From NCBI GenBank assembly GCA_025928185.1, contig JAICKA010000002.1, positions 62,001 to 126,000 of the forward strand: a DNA stretch of 64,000 nt. The letters are read 5' to 3'. Position 1 is the first letter of the stretch, and each line of letters begins with the position of its first letter. A model generated the notes under the pieces. That model was not told the DNA's origin. It saw only the letters and a list, made by a program, of their open reading frames with translations, and searched no databases. The DNA is from Gemmatimonadaceae bacterium. Its GTDB lineage: Bacteria; Gemmatimonadota; Gemmatimonadetes; Gemmatimonadales; Gemmatimonadaceae. Position numbers and translations under genes: made by a program. Below, one piece after another: positions 46,413 through 55,347 of the stretch.

Positions 46413-46540
46413 CGTTCCACCACCCCTGCCGGGATTAAGCAGCGTGGGGCACAGCCGATAATCCGAGGTGCAGAGTGTTCTCGTCGCGGACGTGCGACAC
46501 CCATGCGCTGTACATCAATCAACTGCCGATGGAGGCTTTG

Positions 46541-47329
46541 ATGATCAAGGTAAGTAAAACCGTGTTGATTGCGCTCGTCGCGGGTTTGGCGGCGTGCAGC
46601 GACAGCACCGCACCGAATGCCCAGCATCAGGACCGATTTGACCGTTCGGGTCAGGGTTCGACGCAGGCATTGACGAGCAGCGATACCCTGCGGTTCGGTA
46701 TCACGATCGACCCGTCCCAGGTCACGCAATTCCCCCTGGGCGCCGGTAACTACATCATCTTTCCGGCGCACTCGCTCTGCGACCCGTACACGTCCACGTA
46801 CGGTGTAACGGAGTGGGACAACCCGTGCACGCCCGCGACCTCCAAGTTCACGGTCAACGTCAAGGGTTGGCTGGACGCGAGTGGCAATCCGCACCTCGAT
46901 TTCAGCCCGGGCGTCCGTTTCGTGCCCACGCTCGACCCGGCCGGCTGGGTGAACATGTCGTTCACCGACAGCTACGCCGCGCTGAATCCGTGGTACAACA
47001 TTCTGTACTGTCCCACGGTTGGCGAGAGCTGCATCAACGAAGCGTTGTCGGACCCGACGATGGCTACGGTCACTGATCCGCTCACGGGCCGTCTGACCCG
47101 CCGCGTCAAGCACTTCAGCGGGTACATGGTGGGCGCCGGTGATGCCCTCACCGACGGTGGCACGGATCTGTACACCCGCAGCTTCAATCTGTCAGCGAAA
47201 GGGCCGACTGCGGCCAGTTCGATGAACCGGTCCGCCAGGACCGGTGTGCGGGGAACGCAGTCAGGCGTGCTCGGCCGGCTCCATCAGGCCGCGCGCAAGG
47301 CTGCCGGCTATATGCTCGCTTCGGGCTGA
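46541..47329 (+). CDS. Putative lipoprotein of unknown function
   Basis: 262 residues from the ATG at 46541, preceded by GGAGGCTTTG. Signal with lipobox AGLAAC (MIKVSKTVLIALVAGLAACSDS). The mature part is polar with two Cys pairs (YIIFPAHSLCDPYTSTYGVTEWDNPCTPATSKF; YNILYCPTVGESCINEAL), which suggests two disulfides or a metal site. C-terminal basic/Ala-rich. Not recognised as a family. A terminator follows the stop. Confidence 0.7.
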   Translation: MIKVSKTVLIALVAGLAACSDSTAPNAQHQDRFDRSGQGSTQALTSSDTLRFGITIDPSQVTQFPLGAGNYIIFPAHSLCDPYTSTYGVTEWDNPCTPATSKFTVNVKGWLDASGNPHLDFSPGVRFVPTLDPAGWVNMSFTDSYAALNPWYNILYCPTVGESCINEALSDPTMATVTDPLTGRLTRRVKHFSGYMVGAGDALTDGGTDLYTRSFNLSAKGPTAASSMNRSARTGVRGTQSGVLGRLHQAARKAAGYMLASG

Positions 47330-47346
47330 TAGCTGCCGATACTACA

Positions 47347-47388
47347 GGGGGAGGCGTGCACGTCCGCACGCCTCCCCCTTTCGTTTTT
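47347..47388 (+). terminator. Strong intrinsic terminator
   Basis: Stem GGGGGAGGCGTGC / GCACGCCTCCCCC around ACGTCC, followed by TTTCGTTTTT. Placed just after the lipoprotein gene and before the giant signalling gene. Confidence 0.85.
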
Positions 47389-47429: not shown

Positions 47430-50400
47430 ATGCAGCCCTCGGTCGACACACTGATCCAGCAGGCGCAGCTAGCGGAACGCGAAGGGCGGCGAGACGACGC
47501 TCGTTCGTTGTACGAGCGCGCACTCTATTCGCTCAAACGCTCGCAGGACGGCAAGCTCGCGTCGTCGCTGCTCCGCTGGATCGGTCGCACATATCAACTG
47601 GACGCGAACGCCGACGCGGCGCTCGACTGCCTCGAGGCCGCGATTGCGGTCGCCGAGCAGACGAACGACGGCGAGGCGGTTGGCCACGCGATCAACGTCC
47701 AGGCGATCGTGCACCAGCAACAGGGCGATCTCGATCGGGCCGAGGCGCTGTACCTCGAGGCGCGGAATCACGCGATCGACTCGGGCGAAACGCGCCTCGC
47801 GGCGATGACCGCGCAGAACCTCGGCGTGATCTCCGCCGTGCGCGGCGACCTCGAACGGACGCTTCGCTACTACCGCACCAGTCTCGTGTCCTACCGCACG
47901 CTCGGCGTCCCCAAGGACGTGCTGGGCGCGCTGAACAACATGGGCATGCTGTACACGGACCTCGAGCGGTGGGACGACGCGGTGAGCGCGTTCGAGGAAG
48001 CGATCCAGATTGCCGAAGCGCTCGGCGACATTCCGGCTCGAATTCTCCTCGAGGTCAACCGCGCCGAGCTCGAGATCGCGCGCGGCGAGTTTGCGGCCGC
48101 GCGCAAGGCGTGCGAGCTGGCGTCCTCGTTGTCCGCGCAGACGCAGGACGCGTTCGCGATCGGCGAAATCGAGAAGCATCTCGGTACCGTCGCGCGCGAG
48201 CTGGGCGAGCTGTCGGTGGCCGAGGAGCATCTCGATCGCGCGCAGAAGATCGCCGTCGAGCGCCGCGATCTGCTGCTGTCCGCGGAAACGGCGCGCGAGC
48301 ACGCGGAGCTGTGCCGCAAACAGGGTCGCCATCGCGACGCGTTGATGCACCTCAATCGCGGCCACCGCATCTTCACGCAGCTCAGCGCGAAGCGCGACCT
48401 GGCGGACATCGATCGTCGCAATGCGCGCCTCGAGCACTACTTCCTCGAAGCGGTCCGACACTGGAGCGCCTCGATTGAATCCAAGGATCGCTACACGCAG
48501 GGTCACTGCGAGCGTGTGGCCGATCTCGCCTGCGCGCTCGCCGTGCGCTCGGGCCTCGAGCAGCGCGAGCTGTTCTGGTTCCGTATCGGCGCGATCGTGC
48601 ACGACGTCGGCAAGCTGATCATCCCATCAGACATCCTGAATAAGCCGGGCAAGCTCGCGCCCGATGAGTGGGAGCTCGTCAAACGCCATCCGGTGGCCGG
48701 TGTGGAGATGCTGGCCGACATGGACTTTCCCGGCGACGTCGTGCCGATGGTGCGCTCACACCACGAGCGGTGGGACGGCCGCGGTTATCCGGATGCGCTC
48801 TCAGGCGAGCAGATCCCGCGCAGCGCCCGCATTCTCTGCGTCGCTGATGTCTACGATGCGCTGACGTCGAAGCGAAGCTACAAGGGCGCGCTCAGCCACG
48901 ACGCGGCAATGGACATCATGCGCGCCGATGTCGGTGGACAGTTCGATCCGGAATTGTTCAAGCATTTCGAGGACCTGATGCGCACCCGCACGCCATCGAT
49001 CCGGCAGCGTGCGGCGATCGAGAGCGCGGCGCCGGTGCGGATGCCGCAGCGCGAGCTGCACGTCACCGGTCCGGTGGACGACCTCACGGGTCTCGTGACG
49101 CGCGGACCGCTCATCGAAGCCGCGACGCGCATTCTCGCCGAGCGCGGGCCGTTCGCGACAGTGTCGCTGATGGTCATCGACGTCGACCATTTCAAGACTG
49201 TCAATGACTCGCACGGCCACTTGCAGGGCGACGCCGTGCTACGCGTCGTCGCCGGTACCTTGCGCGAGCTGGCGACGGCCACGGGCATCGTCGGCCGGTA
49301 CGCCGGCGACGAGTTCGTGATCCTGCTGCCGCACACAAATTTGGACGAAGCGCGCGAGCTGGCGGAGCGCATTCGCACGACGGTGCGCCGCGCGTCCGTG
49401 CCGCTGCGCGATCGTGCCGGTTCGATCTCGGTATCGCTCTCGGTAGGCGTCGCCGCCGCCCGCGCCGAGCACAAGGACTTCGAGTCGCTGTTCGCGACGA
49501 GTGACCGCGCGCTTTACGAAGCCAAGCGCCGCGGTCGTGATACCGTCGTCACGTCGGCTGACGTCGAGGAGGGTGCGCACGAGCCGGAGATCAACCTCAA
49601 GCAGTTCGTCGGCCGCGAAGAGGAGCTGCGCCGCCTGGTGCGCATCCTCGACGCGAGCATCGAAGACGGCCCGAGCGTAGTTGCGGTGACCGGCGAAGCC
49701 GGCGTCGGCAAGTCGACGCTCGTGCGACGCCTGGCGGGCGAGGTGCGCATGCGCGCCGGCTCGCTCGTCGCCGGCCGGTGCAGCGAAGCGGACGCCAAAC
49801 CGCCGTACGCGCCGTGGGCCGAAGTCATCACGGCGATTCATCAACTCGGCGTCGTGTGCCCGCGCGAATGGCGCGAGCTGCCACGCCTGGTCCCGGCGCT
49901 CTCCGAGTCGGCGGCTCCAGCCGATCCGAACGGAAATCGCTACGCGCTGTTCGACGAGATCGTGGCGTATTTGCGGCTCGCCGCGTCGGTCCGCCCGCTG
50001 GTGCTCGTGCTCGACGACATGCAGTGGTCCGACTCCGGAACGTGGGACGTGCTCGAGCACGTGATGGATCAGCTCGAGCGCGATCGCGTGCTCATCTGCC
50101 TCACGCTGCGCGCGGAAGACACGCGCGGCGCGGTGCTCGAGCGCCGCCACCGGCTGGTGCGCGACGAGCGCTTTCACGAGATCCAGCTCTCGCGGCTCAA
50201 TCCGAGCGAGCTGCGCACGTGGCTGTCCAGCGTGTTCGGCGCGGACGCGACGCGCGAGCTGGAGGAGTACCTCCTTCGCTACTCCGAGGGCAATCCGCTG
50301 CTCGCCACGCAGCTCGTGCGCATGCTGCACGAGGACGGCGTCGTGCGATATGAGCACAGCAAGTGGACGCTGCGCTCGGAACGTGACAACAATCTTCCGT

Positions 50401-52193
50401 CGGCGCTCACCGGTCTCATGGACCGGCGCCTCGAGCGCCTGTCGCCCGAAGCGCGTCGCGTGCTCAATACCGCGGCGGTGATCGGCCGCATCTTCGACAT
50501 CGACCTGGCCATGGCGGCCGGTGCGGGCGAGGAAGACGAGATTCTCGATGCGCTGGACGAAGGCATCGCGCACGCCGTCATCGAGCCGTGGTCGGAGTCG
50601 TCATCCGGAAGCCACTTCTCGTTCACGCACGGATTGCTCGTCGATGCAGTCCGCCGCGCAATCAATCCGCGTCGCGTCGCGCGCATTCACGCGCGAGTGG
50701 CGGCGGCCATGGAGGCGCGGTGCCCGGAGAACGTCGCCGAGATCGCCATCCACTACGATCGCGCCGGCATTCCGCAGAAGGCGTACGGACATGCGATGGC
50801 TGCGGGAAGCGCCGCGCTCGCCGTGTACGCACACGACGAGGCACGCAAGTTCTTCGAAGTGGCCGAACGCGCGGCGGGCGATCCGGCGGATCGTGCGCGT
50901 GCGCTGCACCACCTCGCGGAAGTCGCCGAGACGGAGAGCCGTTACGCGCTGACCGAAGAGCTGTGCGATCGCGCGCTTGCTGGTCTGGAAAACCAGGCGG
51001 ACGACCATCGGCTGCTCGCCCTGCGCCGCATGCGCGAGCGGGTCCGCGCGGTGCAGGGTCAGCCGGCCTCGGAAACGATTGCGGCCTGCCGCGAGCTGCT
51101 CGTCAAGGCGCGCGAGCTGAAGCTCGCCGGCGAGGAAGCGGCAATCCTGAACATGATCTCGATGTATCAGGGCCGACTCGGCGAGTGGCGCGAAGCGGAA
51201 GAGGTGGCGAGCGAAGCCGTGGCGGCCGCGGAACACGCGAATGATCCGCGCCTGCTCGCGGAAGCGCTCACCCGACTCGGCATGTCGATGATGGACCGTC
51301 GCTCCGAGGAGTCGACGGACTACTATCACCGCGCACTGACGCTCTTCCGCGAAGTGGGTGATCGGCTCGGCGAGGCGAAGTGCTACATCAACATCGGCAT
51401 CATCCATCACCGCGCCGGTGAGGCGACCGCGGCCGAGGCCGCGTTCGATCACGCACTGGAAGCGGCGAACAGCGCGCACGCGCTGGACATTGCCGGTCTC
51501 GCCGCCTTGAATCTCGGCGTGCTCTATCTGCGCCGCGGCCAGCGCGATCTCGCCACTGAACGCTTTGGTGAGGCGCTCAAGCGCTTCACGGAAGCGGGCA
51601 GCGAGTCGCATCGTTTGGCGACGCTGTACAACATGGCAAACCTGGCGCGCGAGACCGAAGACTGGGCAACGGCTTCCGAGCTGTACGACCAGGTGGTGGC
51701 GGTTGCGTCGCGCATCGGCCAGCCGGACATCGAGCTCGGGGCGAAGGCGGGTCAGGCGCTCGCGGCGCTCGCTGTCGGCGCACGGTCGGTCGCCGAGGAT
51801 GCGATGCGGTGGATCCGCACGAACGTCGAGCCGCGTCCGGACTGGTGGTTCCAGGGACGCGACATGGTCGACGCGCTCCGCGTGCGTCTCGCGGCGGATC
51901 GCGGCGACGATGCGCACGCACTTCGATTGCTCCACGAGGCGGTCGACATCGCGGGGCAGCACGACATGTACGTCGCCGCGTATCTCGTGGCCGAGTGTGC
52001 GCCTTCGCTGCTGCGCTGCGGCGACGGCCTGCTCGAGTTGATCGAACGGATCACGCCGGATGTCGAGGCGCTCGGCTTCGCCGGCGTCGCCGAGCGGCTC
52101 GCGTCGCTCCGCGTCGCGCTTGGTGCCGCCACGCAGAACATCAACCCGCCGGGCCTTGCCGCAACATCGGCTGGCCTGACGTCGGCCGCGTGA
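47430..52193 (+). CDS. Giant signalling protein: TPR, HD-GYP, GGDEF, STAND-type ATPase, TPR
   Basis: 1587 residues in one frame. Parts in order: N-terminal TPR-like helices (about 1-335, repeats with ALDCLEAAIAVAEQTNDGEAVGHA); HD-GYP domain with HDVGK near 391 and DGRGYP near 450, the fold that hydrolyses cyclic di-GMP; GGDEF domain near 545-700 with AGDEF near 623 and DVDHFKTVNDSHGHLQGD, the fold that makes cyclic di-GMP; ATPase domain with Walker A TGEAGVGKST near 754 and Walker B VLVLDDMQW near 860, like the AAA_16/STAND class; then TPR repeats to about 1560. It therefore has opposite c-di-GMP activities plus an ATP-driven switch and a large protein-binding scaffold. Its stop overlaps the next gene (GTGA). 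No membrane segment. Confidence 0.9.
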   Translation: MQPSVDTLIQQAQLAEREGRRDDARSLYERALYSLKRSQDGKLASSLLRWIGRTYQLDANADAALDCLEAAIAVAEQTNDGEAVGHAINVQAIVHQQQGDLDRAEALYLEARNHAIDSGETRLAAMTAQNLGVISAVRGDLERTLRYYRTSLVSYRTLGVPKDVLGALNNMGMLYTDLERWDDAVSAFEEAIQIAEALGDIPARILLEVNRAELEIARGEFAAARKACELASSLSAQTQDAFAIGEIEKHLGTVARELGELSVAEEHLDRAQKIAVERRDLLLSAETAREHAELCRKQGRHRDALMHLNRGHRIFTQLSAKRDLADIDRRNARLEHYFLEAVRHWSASIESKDRYTQGHCERVADLACALAVRSGLEQRELFWFRIGAIVHDVGKLIIPSDILNKPGKLAPDEWELVKRHPVAGVEMLADMDFPGDVVPMVRSHHERWDGRGYPDALSGEQIPRSARILCVADVYDALTSKRSYKGALSHDAAMDIMRADVGGQFDPELFKHFEDLMRTRTPSIRQRAAIESAAPVRMPQRELHVTGPVDDLTGLVTRGPLIEAATRILAERGPFATVSLMVIDVDHFKTVNDSHGHLQGDAVLRVVAGTLRELATATGIVGRYAGDEFVILLPHTNLDEARELAERIRTTVRRASVPLRDRAGSISVSLSVGVAAARAEHKDFESLFATSDRALYEAKRRGRDTVVTSADVEEGAHEPEINLKQFVGREEELRRLVRILDASIEDGPSVVAVTGEAGVGKSTLVRRLAGEVRMRAGSLVAGRCSEADAKPPYAPWAEVITAIHQLGVVCPREWRELPRLVPALSESAAPADPNGNRYALFDEIVAYLRLAASVRPLVLVLDDMQWSDSGTWDVLEHVMDQLERDRVLICLTLRAEDTRGAVLERRHRLVRDERFHEIQLSRLNPSELRTWLSSVFGADATRELEEYLLRYSEGNPLLATQLVRMLHEDGVVRYEHSKWTLRSERDNNLPSALTGLMDRRLERLSPEARRVLNTAAVIGRIFDIDLAMAAGAGEEDEILDALDEGIAHAVIEPWSESSSGSHFSFTHGLLVDAVRRAINPRRVARIHARVAAAMEARCPENVAEIAIHYDRAGIPQKAYGHAMAAGSAALAVYAHDEARKFFEVAERAAGDPADRARALHHLAEVAETESRYALTEELCDRALAGLENQADDHRLLALRRMRERVRAVQGQPASETIAACRELLVKARELKLAGEEAAILNMISMYQGRLGEWREAEEVASEAVAAAEHANDPRLLAEALTRLGMSMMDRRSEESTDYYHRALTLFREVGDRLGEAKCYINIGIIHHRAGEATAAEAAFDHALEAANSAHALDIAGLAALNLGVLYLRRGQRDLATERFGEALKRFTEAGSESHRLATLYNMANLARETEDWATASELYDQVVAVASRIGQPDIELGAKAGQALAALAVGARSVAEDAMRWIRTNVEPRPDWWFQGRDMVDALRVRLAADRGDDAHALRLLHEAVDIAGQHDMYVAAYLVAECAPSLLRCGDGLLELIERITPDVEALGFAGVAERLASLRVALGAATQNINPPGLAATSAGLTSAA

Positions 52194-53248
52194 CGGTGCC
52201 CGATGCTGAACTACGGCAGGGAATCGTGACGAATCCCGCATCGATCCGGCCGACGCCGGTCGGCACCGACGCGCACGGCGGCCACGAATTTTCCGCCGTG
52301 GTGGCCGAGAGCCACGCCATGCGCCACGCGATCCACATGGCGCGTCGCATTGCCACGACGCACGTGCGGGCACTGCTGCTCGCCGGTGAAGCAGGTACCG
52401 GCAAGGAGCTGATGGCTCGCTGCATTCACAACGCGGGCCCGAACGCCAACGCGCCGTTCGTCTCGGTGAACTGTGCGTCGATTCCCGCGCCGTTGCTCGA
52501 TGTCGAGTTGTTCGGAACGAATCCAACGCGACACGACATGTCGCGCAAGGTCGGCGTGCTCGAGCTCACCGGTCGCGGCACCGTGTTTCTCGATGAAGTC
52601 GGCGAGATGCCGCTGGCGTTGCAGGATCGACTGCTGCGCACGCTCGAGGAATACGTGATTCCGCTTCGAGGCGCCGAGTTCGATCATCCGGTGCATTGCC
52701 GCGTGATCGCGGCGAGCAAGACGCGGCTCGAGGATCGGGTCGCCTCCGGCGCGTTCCGCGAGTCGCTGCTGGCGCGACTGTCGGTGCTGCGCATCGAGCT
52801 GCCGCCGCTCCGCGAGCGCGACGAGGACGCGCGGCTGATCGCCGAGCATCTGCTGGCCGAGGCCACGCGGCTGCAGGGCGCTCCGCATCGCAAGATCGGG
52901 CTCGACGCGGCAGCCATTCTGCGGTCGCACCGCTGGCCCGGCAACGTTCGCGAGTTGAAGCATGTGATCGAACGCGCGCAAGTAATTTGCGACGGTTCGC
53001 TGATTGGTGCGGAGCACCTCTCGATCAATCAGCGCCGCTCCGGTGCGCGCGCGGTGCGCGGCACGGCGGCGTTCGCGGAGATCCGCATTCCGTCCGACGG
53101 CAAGCCGCTGCGCGACATCGAGCGCGAGGCGCTCGAGCTCACGTTGCAGCTCACGGACAACAATCAGAGTGCAGCGGCGCGAATGCTGGCGATCTCCCGG
53201 CCGACGCTGCTCCGCAAGCTGCGTTCGTTCGGCCTGGCCAGAGAGTAG
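52190..53248 (+). CDS. Sigma-54-activator-like AAA+ protein lacking the GAFTGA loop
   Basis: 352 residues from a GTG overlapping the upstream stop (GTG at 52196 is also possible). AAA+ of the NtrC type: VVAESHAMRHAIHMARRIATTHVRALLLAGEAGTGKELMARCIH, FVSVNCASIPAPLLDVELFG, Walker B GRGTVFLDEVGEMPLALQ, the LPPLRERDEDARLIAEHLL region and SHRWPGNVRELKHVIERAQVI, then a C-terminal Fis-like HTH (LELTLQLTDNNQSAAARMLAISRPTLLRKL). The segment after VELFG reads TNPTRHDMSRKVG rather than HxKGAFTGA, so the sigma-54 contact loop is missing. No receiver domain. It probably depends on its partner protein for input and does not use standard sigma-54 contact. Confidence 0.85.
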   Translation: MTVPDAELRQGIVTNPASIRPTPVGTDAHGGHEFSAVVAESHAMRHAIHMARRIATTHVRALLLAGEAGTGKELMARCIHNAGPNANAPFVSVNCASIPAPLLDVELFGTNPTRHDMSRKVGVLELTGRGTVFLDEVGEMPLALQDRLLRTLEEYVIPLRGAEFDHPVHCRVIAASKTRLEDRVASGAFRESLLARLSVLRIELPPLRERDEDARLIAEHLLAEATRLQGAPHRKIGLDAAAILRSHRWPGNVRELKHVIERAQVICDGSLIGAEHLSINQRRSGARAVRGTAAFAEIRIPSDGKPLRDIEREALELTLQLTDNNQSAAARMLAISRPTLLRKLRSFGLARE

Positions 53249-53250
53249 AA

Positions 53251-54306
53251 TCAGCGCTGCGGAGCGCGGGCAGAGCCCTGAGCGGGCTGCTGCTGCGTGA
53301 GGCAGTGCAGCGTGCCCAATCCCCACACGAGATCCACGGCGTGTACGCCGATTACGTGTCGCCCGGGGAACAGCTCGGCGAGCGTCGCGAGCGCGATCCG
53401 GTCGTTCCGGTCGTTGAACGTGGGCACGATCACGACGCCGTTGGCGATATAGAAGTTCGCATAGCTCGCCGGCAGCCGCTCGCCGTTCATCTCGACGGCG
53501 CGGGGATACGGCAGCTTGACGACGCGCAGCGCCCCGCGCTCGCCGCCAGCCAGTTGCAGCCGGTCGAAATTGTCGACTGAGCGGCGGTGATTCTCGTCGT
53601 CTGCCGGGTCCGGCTCGTAGGCAAGCACGATGACACCGGGCGCGGTGAAGCGAGCCACATCGTCGATGTGGCCGTGCGTATCGTCGCCGACGCAGCCCTG
53701 ACCGAGCCAGATTGTCTGCCGAATGCCAAGGGCCTGATGAAACACGCGCTCGTAGCCGGCACGGGTCAGTCCGGGGTTGCGCGCCTGCACGGGCGAGAGC
53801 AGGCATTCCTCGGTGACGAGGAGCGTGCCTTCGCCATCGGTCTCGATCGCGCCGCCCTCGAGCACGACGCGCTCGCCGGTGTCGTCTCGCACGGGTTCGA
53901 TGCGCGGCAGACCGGTAATGCCGGCGATGGCCTCGCCGACCTGCGCGTCGCGTTCATAGTTGTCGTATTTCGCCCAGGCGTTGAAGCGCCAGTTGACGAG
54001 CGACACCGATCCGTCGTCGTCACGGACGCCGGTCGGACCGGAATCGCGGAGCCAGACGCGATCCGTCGGAACGACGTGCAGCCGAACGTTCTGCCGCACG
54101 CCGTGCGCCTCGAGCGCGCGCCGGGCGTCGTCGCGCACGGTCTCGCTCTGGCAGAGGATCTCGACGCGCTCGTACTGATGCAGAATCCGCACAATCTCGG
54201 CGTAGACCCACGGAATGGGCGCGAGCTTTCCGGGCCAGTCCGGCTCGTGATGCGGCCAGGCAATCCACGTGGCGTCGTGCGGTTCCCATTCGGCGGGAAA
54301 GATCAT
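53251..54306 (-). CDS. aguA: Agmatine deiminase
   Basis: 351 residues. Motifs: MIFPAEWEPHDATWIAWPHHEPDWPGK, RDSGPTGV, GQGCVGDDTHGHIDDVARF, and the nucleophilic Cys in GLGTLHCLTQQ near the C-terminus, as in the PPAD/agmatine deiminase family. Converts agmatine to N-carbamoylputrescine and ammonia. The next gene on the strand is N-carbamoylputrescine amidase, so these two give a two-step route to putrescine. Distance between them is 105 nt because of tandem repeats. Confidence 0.93.
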   Translation of the reverse strand: MIFPAEWEPHDATWIAWPHHEPDWPGKLAPIPWVYAEIVRILHQYERVEILCQSETVRDDARRALEAHGVRQNVRLHVVPTDRVWLRDSGPTGVRDDDGSVSLVNWRFNAWAKYDNYERDAQVGEAIAGITGLPRIEPVRDDTGERVVLEGGAIETDGEGTLLVTEECLLSPVQARNPGLTRAGYERVFHQALGIRQTIWLGQGCVGDDTHGHIDDVARFTAPGVIVLAYEPDPADDENHRRSVDNFDRLQLAGGERGALRVVKLPYPRAVEMNGERLPASYANFYIANGVVIVPTFNDRNDRIALATLAELFPGRHVIGVHAVDLVWGLGTLHCLTQQQPAQGSARAPQR

Positions 54307-54316
54307 TGGCGGATAA

Positions 54317-54417
54317 CGGTGGAACGGTGGAACGGTGGAACGGTGGAACGGTGGAACGGTCGAACGGTGGAACCGAGCCTGAGCCGTTCATGCGTTCATG
54401 CGTTCATGCGTTCATGC
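54317..54417. repeat. Two blocks of 8-bp tandem repeats between aguA and aguB
   Basis: Block 1: seven CGGTGGAA units (54317-54372; one unit reads CGGTCGAA). Block 2: four GTTCATGC units (54386-54417). Block 2 overlaps the stop codon of the minus-strand aguB gene. The spacer holds no gene. Confidence 0.9.
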
Positions 54418-55347
54418 GCCGAGGTACCGGCTGAGGATCGGCGCGTATGCGTCGATGCGGCGGTCGCGCAGGAACGGCCAGTTGCGACGTGTGTCCTCGA
54501 TCAGTTTTGGATCGCAGCGCGCGATGAGAATTTGCTCATCGGTGCCGGCTTCGGCCAGGATGCGGCCGAACGGATCGGCGATGAACGAATTCCCGAAGAA
54601 CTCGATGCCGTTCGTGCCTGGCTCGTCCTCGTGGCCGACGCGATTGGGCGATGCGACGTACACGCCGTTGGCAATCGCGTGGGCGCGCTGCATCGTCCGC
54701 CAGGCGTCCACCTGCGCCTCGCCGAACTCCGCCTTCTCCGACGGGTGCCAGCCGATGGCCGTGGGATAGAACAGGATGTCGGCGCCGAGCAAGGAAGTGA
54801 TGCGCGCCGCCTCGGGATACCACTGATCCCAGCAGATCAGCACGCCGATGTCCGCGTAACGCGTCTTCCAAACCCGAAAGCCGCTCGCCTGCTTCGCCAC
54901 CTGGCCGATCGCGTCGATGCGGTCATCGTTCGCCGCGTCGCCGGGCGTGAAGTAGTACTTCTCGTTGAACAGCGGATCGTCGGGAATGTGCATCTTGCGA
55001 TATACGCCCAGCAGCGACCCGTCCGCATCGATGATCGCCGCCGAGTTGCGATAGATTCCGCGCGCTTGTCGCTCGAATAGCGGAACGATCAGCACGACCG
55101 CGAGCTCCTTCGCCAGCGCCTGCATGCGATCGGTCGTCGGCCCGGGTATCGGCTCCGCGATGTCGAACCGCTCGCACTTCTGCGACTTGCAGAAGTACGG
55201 CGCGTTGAACAGCTCCTTCAGGCAGATGATCTGCGCGCCCTGCACCGCGGCCTGACGGACGCGATCGACCGTCGCACTGACGGTCGCCGCGGTGTCGTCG
55301 CTGGCGCGATCCTGAATGATGCCGACGGTGAAGGGGGAGGCGGACAT
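54412..55347 (-). CDS. aguB: N-carbamoylputrescine amidase
   Basis: 311 residues from the ATG at 55347; the 56 upstream track residues lie in the repeat region and do not fit. Nitrilase-superfamily catalytic triad: Glu in CLKELFNAPYF, Lys in YRKMHIPDDPLFNEKYYF, Cys in GVLICWDQWYPEAARI. The sequence GTNGIEFFGNSFIADPFG is typical. It hydrolyses N-carbamoylputrescine to putrescine, CO2 and ammonia, following AguA. Its stop codon lies in the block of GTTCATGC repeats. Confidence 0.93.
   Translation of the reverse strand: MSASPFTVGIIQDRASDDTAATVSATVDRVRQAAVQGAQIICLKELFNAPYFCKSQKCERFDIAEPIPGPTTDRMQALAKELAVVLIVPLFERQARGIYRNSAAIIDADGSLLGVYRKMHIPDDPLFNEKYYFTPGDAANDDRIDAIGQVAKQASGFRVWKTRYADIGVLICWDQWYPEAARITSLLGADILFYPTAIGWHPSEKAEFGEAQVDAWRTMQRAHAIANGVYVASPNRVGHEDEPGTNGIEFFGNSFIADPFGRILAEAGTDEQILIARCDPKLIEDTRRNWPFLRDRRIDAYAPILSRYLGA

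Follow-up and report, generated by a model that had tools for sequence, protein, structure and literature searches.

STAND ATPases of the MalT, PH0952 and AfsR type have a P-loop core followed by MalT-like TPRs, and they operate through an ADP/ATP oligomerisation switch (PMC6468293, PMC4381067). That is, TPR-sensor STANDs rest as ADP-bound monomers, which inducer and ATP together convert into multimers (PMC6468293). In MalT-type proteins the effector attached to this switch binds DNA. Opposing c-di-GMP domains are found on one chain in the hybrids of GGDEF with HD-GYP (or EAL), whose usual sensors are PAS, GAF, REC or membrane domains. The TOMM kinase/cyclase proteins (TIGR03903) and the cyclase-STAND-TPR proteins place a nucleotide-signalling enzyme before a STAND-TPR module; in the TOMM proteins it consists of a kinase and a class III cyclase.

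We analysed a stretch of 64,000 nucleotides, referred to here as the window, from a Gemmatimonadaceae bacterium. It encodes a 1587-residue protein, which an earlier note had described as an HD-GYP domain, a GGDEF domain and a STAND ATPase lying between TPR regions. Pfam profiles, all above their curated cut-offs, confirm this description and give the architecture TPR - HD-GYP - GGDEF - STAND-type ATPase (AAA_16) - TPR. We refer to this protein as the fusion. The features of its locus are as follows.

46475..47329, + strand: secreted lipoprotein of the ZU5-like family (lipobox LAAC; neighbour linkage, HFS motif, fold model)
47346..47379, + strand: terminator-like hairpin, then TTTCGTTTTT (-32.2 kcal/mol, versus a mean of -12.1 for shuffles); separates the lipoprotein and fusion genes
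47430..52193, + strand: fusion gene, from ATG start to TGA, 1587 aa, no internal stop
47430..48449, + strand: N-terminal TPR region, aa 1-340 (Pfam TPR_12, TPR_1)
48474..48956, + strand: predicted HD-GYP phosphodiesterase domain, aa 349-509 (Pfam HD_5, 1e-35)
49074..49541, + strand: predicted GGDEF cyclase domain, aa 549-704 (Pfam GGDEF, 1.1e-38; signature AGDEF, without RxxD)
49602..50096, + strand: STAND-type P-loop ATPase, aa 725-889 (Pfam AAA_16, 4.8e-29)
50847..52079, + strand: C-terminal MalT-like TPR region, aa 1140-1550 (Pfam TPR_MalT, 6.1e-20)
51843-51860, + strand: conserved WWFQGR in the C-terminal TPR region (motif search)
52190..53248, + strand: AAA+ / HTH_8 regulator of the sigma-54 activator family (Pfam Sigma54_activat, 3.1e-43; HTH_8, 2.1e-11)

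Like the MalT-type STANDs, the fusion has a P-loop STAND-type core and then MalT-like TPRs, and the same ADP/ATP oligomerisation switch is expected of it; but where those proteins carry a DNA-binding effector, it carries a predicted c-di-GMP cyclase and a predicted phosphodiesterase, the latter with a TPR region of its own. It shares with the hybrid enzymes the presence of opposing c-di-GMP domains on one chain, whereas a STAND ATPase and two TPR regions stand in place of their usual sensors. As in the TOMM proteins, a nucleotide-signalling enzyme precedes the STAND-TPR module, with GGDEF and HD-GYP substituted for kinase and class III cyclase; the score against TIGR03903 (117 bits) is far under the 706-bit family cut-off. 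The earlier note had called this architecture unusual. We found no description of the arrangement in the literature library that we searched. The protein is not a one-off: copies of it are common within one family of Gemmatimonadota. We conclude that the fusion combines known signalling modules in a new way, and that one family conserves it.

The ORF at 47430-52193 has the top coding score among the surrounding genes. The signature residues listed in the earlier note (HDVGK, DGRGYP, AGDEF, GEAGVGKST and LDDMQW) are all located in its 1587-aa product: HDVGK at residues 391-395 and HHERWDGRGYP at 444-454 in the HD-GYP domain, whose metal ligands are also in place, the cyclase signature RYAGDEF at 623-629, and the P-loop motifs GEAGVGKST (Walker A, 755-763) and LVLVLDDMQW (857-866). 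A profile HMM check of the central part, which matches HD_5 at 1e-35 and GGDEF at 1.1e-38, agrees with this assignment. TPR_12 matches seven stretches of the protein (1.2e-44), and a sub-threshold NCBIfam TOMM_kin_cyc match (726-1142) extends the STAND-like region to about residue 1142.

In the GGDEF domain, the metal and guanine-binding residues D584/D586, N592 and D601 are all there, and the GHxxGD motif, here GHLQGD (596-601), retains the guanine-side Asp. As a family rule, this Asp marks GGDEF enzymes that make c-di-GMP and not cGAMP. The AGDEF form of the signature is not regarded as a defect, because VCA0965 carries AGDEF and yet makes c-di-GMP in vitro (PMC3974145). With the signature residues of both the HD-GYP and the GGDEF domain in place, both turnover activities of the fusion are plausible. 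The nearest solved relatives of the HD-GYP domain are V-cGAP3 (5z7c) and 4mcw, to both of which it can be aligned, and the solved-structure matches of the fusion also include many cyclases; in a profile search of the STAND region against solved structures, only generic P-loop and TPR proteins matched.

Across 298 sampled genomes of the phylum, we found 30 full-length homologues of the fusion in 23 genomes, all of them in one Gemmatimonadota family, while TPR-HD-GYP proteins without the remaining modules were found in three further families of the class. The full fusion recurs among 59 relatives, at 34-80% identity. In the relatives scan, which was driven by HD-GYP peptides, the whole-protein matches with names were all Gemmatimonadetes, the matches outside the phylum were to HD-GYP or HD-GYP-GGDEF only, and the STAND half was covered only by Gemmatimonadota matches. 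For the active-site census we aligned 18 fusions, that is, the window protein and 17 others. All 18 retain the HD-GYP residues and the Walker A lysine, and the GGDEF signature reads AGDEF or GGDEF in 16/18. The two most divergent fusions have GSDEF, and cyclase activity is therefore not essential everywhere. Since the five-part protein is kept at 34-80% identity in 17 other copies with its active-site residues conserved, it is not a product of chance.

An RxxD inhibitory site is common in GGDEF cyclases, and not obligatory. It is present in none of the six fusions of the window's genus and in 9 of the 12 other fusions; by its motif pattern, this inhibitory or feedback site is lost in the genus. 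In our trees, the fusions, judged by their C-terminal halves, group in a single clade to the exclusion of the free GGDEF-STAND-TPR proteins (support 100/100), which is consistent with one fusion event. Two TPR-HD-GYP-GGDEF forms, nested within the fusions with support of 94/80 and 92/79, are apparently secondary losses. At one locus (L038, G002 C12) the lipoprotein-plus-fusion pair is duplicated in tandem.

The genome that contains the window also encodes the two halves of the fusion as separate proteins: a 542-aa TPR-HD-GYP protein, 48% identical to the fusion, on C109 (L003, L060), and a 1032-aa GGDEF-STAND-TPR protein, 36% identical to it, on C96 (L002, L071). Among the free GGDEF-STAND-TPR proteins, nine of which could be resolved and which are mutually related, so that they do not represent nine independent events, the cyclase signature is lost in 9/9, RxxD is present in 9/9 and the Walker lysine is missing in 8/9. 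About ten columns of the degraded GGDEF region are invariant, with both the R and the D of RxxD among them. Because the catalytic signature is lost and RxxD is kept, paralogues of the C96 type have probably become c-di-GMP receptors, whereas the fusion stayed an enzyme. The PelD-type receptors show the same loss and the same retention; unlike them, the C96 paralogue is cytoplasmic and joined to a STAND-TPR module, and its receptor role is predicted from sequence. The C-terminal TPRs of the fusions and of the GGDEF-STAND-TPR proteins share a motif of the WFQGRE type, which may mark a common inducer site. The gene order at the C109 loci (L003, L060), and also at L058, L059, L063 and L064, is ZU5-like gene, TPR-only protein, sigma-54 activator, TPR-HD-GYP.

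The conserved partner of the regulator family, on which the earlier note was silent, is an upstream secreted ZU5-like lipoprotein. Across 25 genomes we counted 75 genes of this lipoprotein family, and 60 of them have a regulator within 4.5 kb, where random placement would give 0.54; because the 21 seed lipoproteins for the profile came from regulator neighbourhoods, it is fairer to leave them out, which gives 39 of 54 non-seed genes. The linked non-seed cases reach other genera and another family (G027, G035, G043, G050, G052). A profile search of the window's own genome gives three strong members, located exactly at the three regulator loci (3/3); weaker matches in this genome, which aligned for the most part with the signal-peptide end of that profile, were discarded. 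The lipoprotein gene is found upstream of fusions and of genes for TPR-HD-GYP proteins, and downstream of those for GGDEF-STAND-TPR proteins; it nearly always shares the strand of the regulator gene and is often 50-350 bp from it. Counted from the other side, it accompanies 45 of the 68 regulators; it is absent from the neighbourhood of five of the 18 fusions, and the deepest-branching fusions are without it. Some of the unlinked lipoprotein genes adjoin TPR-only or weaker TPR-HD-GYP proteins (L174, L178, L179, L180). Pilin or minor-pilin genes occur near ZU5-like or TPR regulator genes at L065, L067, L173 and L179.

Hairpins similar to the one at 47346-47379 occur in several genus members and related loci, not at all loci. 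It may lower read-through into the fusion gene, but we leave it out of the mechanism proposed below because it is absent from some loci.

The likely true start of the window's lipoprotein gene is the ATG at 46541, and its beta domain, at about 46646-47146, ends in HFSGY. Pfam ZU5 matches 6 of 21 family members (best 1.5e-5), the window member not being among them. The profiles of the two lipoprotein subtypes retrieve each other, and at L040 both subtypes are contained in a single ORF. The motif HF[S/T]x[YW] is present in every listed member, as HFS throughout except for HFT in one; the residue after the Ser is variable (G, D, R, E, N), and H, F, S and Y persist. In three ORFs (L040:5715-6851, L039:5734-6870 and L172:4063-5259) we observed a tandem pair of ZU5-like domains, with HFS closing each.

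In the AlphaFold model, the beta domain has a pLDDT of 93 and the HFS Ser immediately precedes the last strand. For Foldseek we used the trimmed core, since the full-length model gave noise owing to its disordered tails. The top match was the GAIN domain of ADGRB2 (probability 0.94, TM 0.47), at an E of 0.046 that is not significant, and an ankyrin ZU5 structure was also among the matches; a profile of the core gave no match to PDB sequences. Judging by the title of one paper, GAIN, ZU5 and Nup98 are reportedly one autoproteolytic domain. The lipoprotein shares HFS before the last strand with the ZU5/GAIN autoproteolytic domains of PIDD, the CARD8/NLRP1 FIIND and the adhesion GPCRs; unlike these proteins it is small and bacterial, has no UPA, death-fold or 7TM part, and its cleavage is only predicted. 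PIDD self-cleaves at HF/S directly after its ZU5 domains (PMC3210808). We regard the HFS, on the strength of motif and model, as a strong lead for a self-cleavage site.

On the other side of the fusion gene, a possible GTG start at 52190 overlaps the TGA stop at 52191-52193, and translational coupling of the fusion with the AAA+ gene is therefore plausible. The earlier note had proposed coupling to a sigma-54-like gene; the overlap and the Sigma54_activat match are in its favour, but the GAFTGA loop is absent from the AAA+ gene of the window and from four genus orthologues, and this gene type adjoins the fusion only in the window's genus, where five members keep the pair. The genus-limited distribution and the missing GAFTGA make standard activation of sigma-54 RNA polymerase unlikely for 52190-53248, as far as its sequence can tell. 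The related activator at the split locus, beside TPR-HD-GYP, has GAFTGA intact in most copies. The genome encodes RpoN; a loose pattern for sigma-54 promoter-like sites found none upstream of the window genes, and matched at scattered places elsewhere. The NtrC of Caulobacter, which is without GAFTGA, works at sigma-70 promoters (PMC12421884). Because outside the genus such a gene is not found beside the fusion, we treat it as accessory.

How might these parts work together? Our tentative reading, to which we would give slightly less than an even chance, takes the fusion for a soluble c-di-GMP switch that is gated by ATP, works in both directions and serves an envelope or pilus programme. GGDEF domains need dimerisation for activity, and because such a domain sits directly before the STAND core, synthesis would be gated by ATP. 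At rest, the core would be closed with ADP and the GGDEF domain monomeric and silent, while HD-GYP, beside the N-terminal TPRs, would be able to degrade c-di-GMP. An inducer on the C-terminal TPRs would cause the core to take ATP and oligomerise; the oligomer would juxtapose GGDEF domains and, in the direction of switching that we infer, shift the protein to c-di-GMP synthesis. By analogy, the model suggested in the earlier note, in which a ligand would bind the TPRs and the ATPase would oligomerise, fits the STAND-TPR proteins that have been studied (PMC6468293). The readers of c-di-GMP would probably be the GGDEF-STAND-TPR pseudo-enzyme with its RxxD and the MshEN domains of pilus-type ATPases; the window's genome has two MshEN domains and eight prepilin motifs, and no PilZ was found in it. 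The unit would serve the envelope: the partner conserved with it is the secreted ZU5-like lipoprotein, and pilin or minor-pilin genes are neighbours at some sister loci. Several findings weigh against this reading, namely the GSDEF signature of the two divergent fusions, the restriction of the STAND region's structural matches to generic P-loop and TPR proteins, the five fusions with no lipoprotein gene nearby, and the hairpin between the two genes in the window.

Alternatively, the fusion could in practice be a one-way phosphodiesterase, in which a GTP-binding GGDEF domain tunes HD-GYP allosterically and the STAND and TPR parts are a scaffold. Of the modules, HD-GYP varies least (18/18), and TPR-HD-GYP relatives across the class keep it as well; the GGDEF signature is degraded in two fusions, and GTP-sensing GGDEF domains are known in hybrid enzymes. 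We nevertheless consider this reading rather unlikely, given that AGDEF or GGDEF and the metal and guanine residues are intact in 16/18 fusions, even though free paralogues readily lose the signature. The stop/start overlap would fit a different role, namely that the fusion is mainly a scaffold that touches and so controls the AAA+ regulator translated along with it (52190-53248), turnover of c-di-GMP being the trigger. Such a role is consistent with retention of the pair in five genus members, and with the related AAA+ gene that precedes TPR-HD-GYP at the split locus and overlaps it in L003; but most fusions outside the window's genus are without this neighbour and GAFTGA is missing, and we regard it as improbable. 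As for phage defence, which includes STAND ATPases with repeat sensors as well as cyclic-nucleotide enzymes, the STAND-TPR part might be an immune-type sensor with nucleotide-signalling effector domains. What is conserved beside it, however, is a lipoprotein gene and, at some loci, pilin genes, and PADLOC reported no defence system: it matched the fusion only by a TPR profile of generic type and by a weak P-loop hit, and the neighbouring AAA+ gene by only the shared AAA-HTH part of RtcR models. An anti-phage role thus seems to us very improbable.

If the fusion is indeed a bidirectional switch, one nucleotide-gated oligomerisation step would control both how a messenger is made and how it is broken down. 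Natural controls exist within one genome: the full fusion, the single-module paralogues, and pseudo-enzymes with RxxD kept. The larger prospect is the pairing of the fusion with a possibly self-cleaving secreted protein. We can picture, as a doubtful proposal, a previously undescribed two-part signalling system with a lipoprotein outside the membrane that carries a self-cleaving HF/S site of the ZU5/GAIN type, and TPR-STAND proteins inside that make, destroy or read c-di-GMP, such that an envelope event would be turned into an ATP-committed change in c-di-GMP. Should the lipoprotein self-cleave, a signalling pair in bacteria, too, would be using the ZU5/GAIN self-cleavage motif of animals.

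Beyond the AAA+ gene, at 53251-55347 on the - strand, two adjoining genes resemble agmatine deiminase and N-carbamoylputrescine amidase, as named by eye; the gene pair runs towards the operon in convergent orientation, and its synteny holds within the genus.
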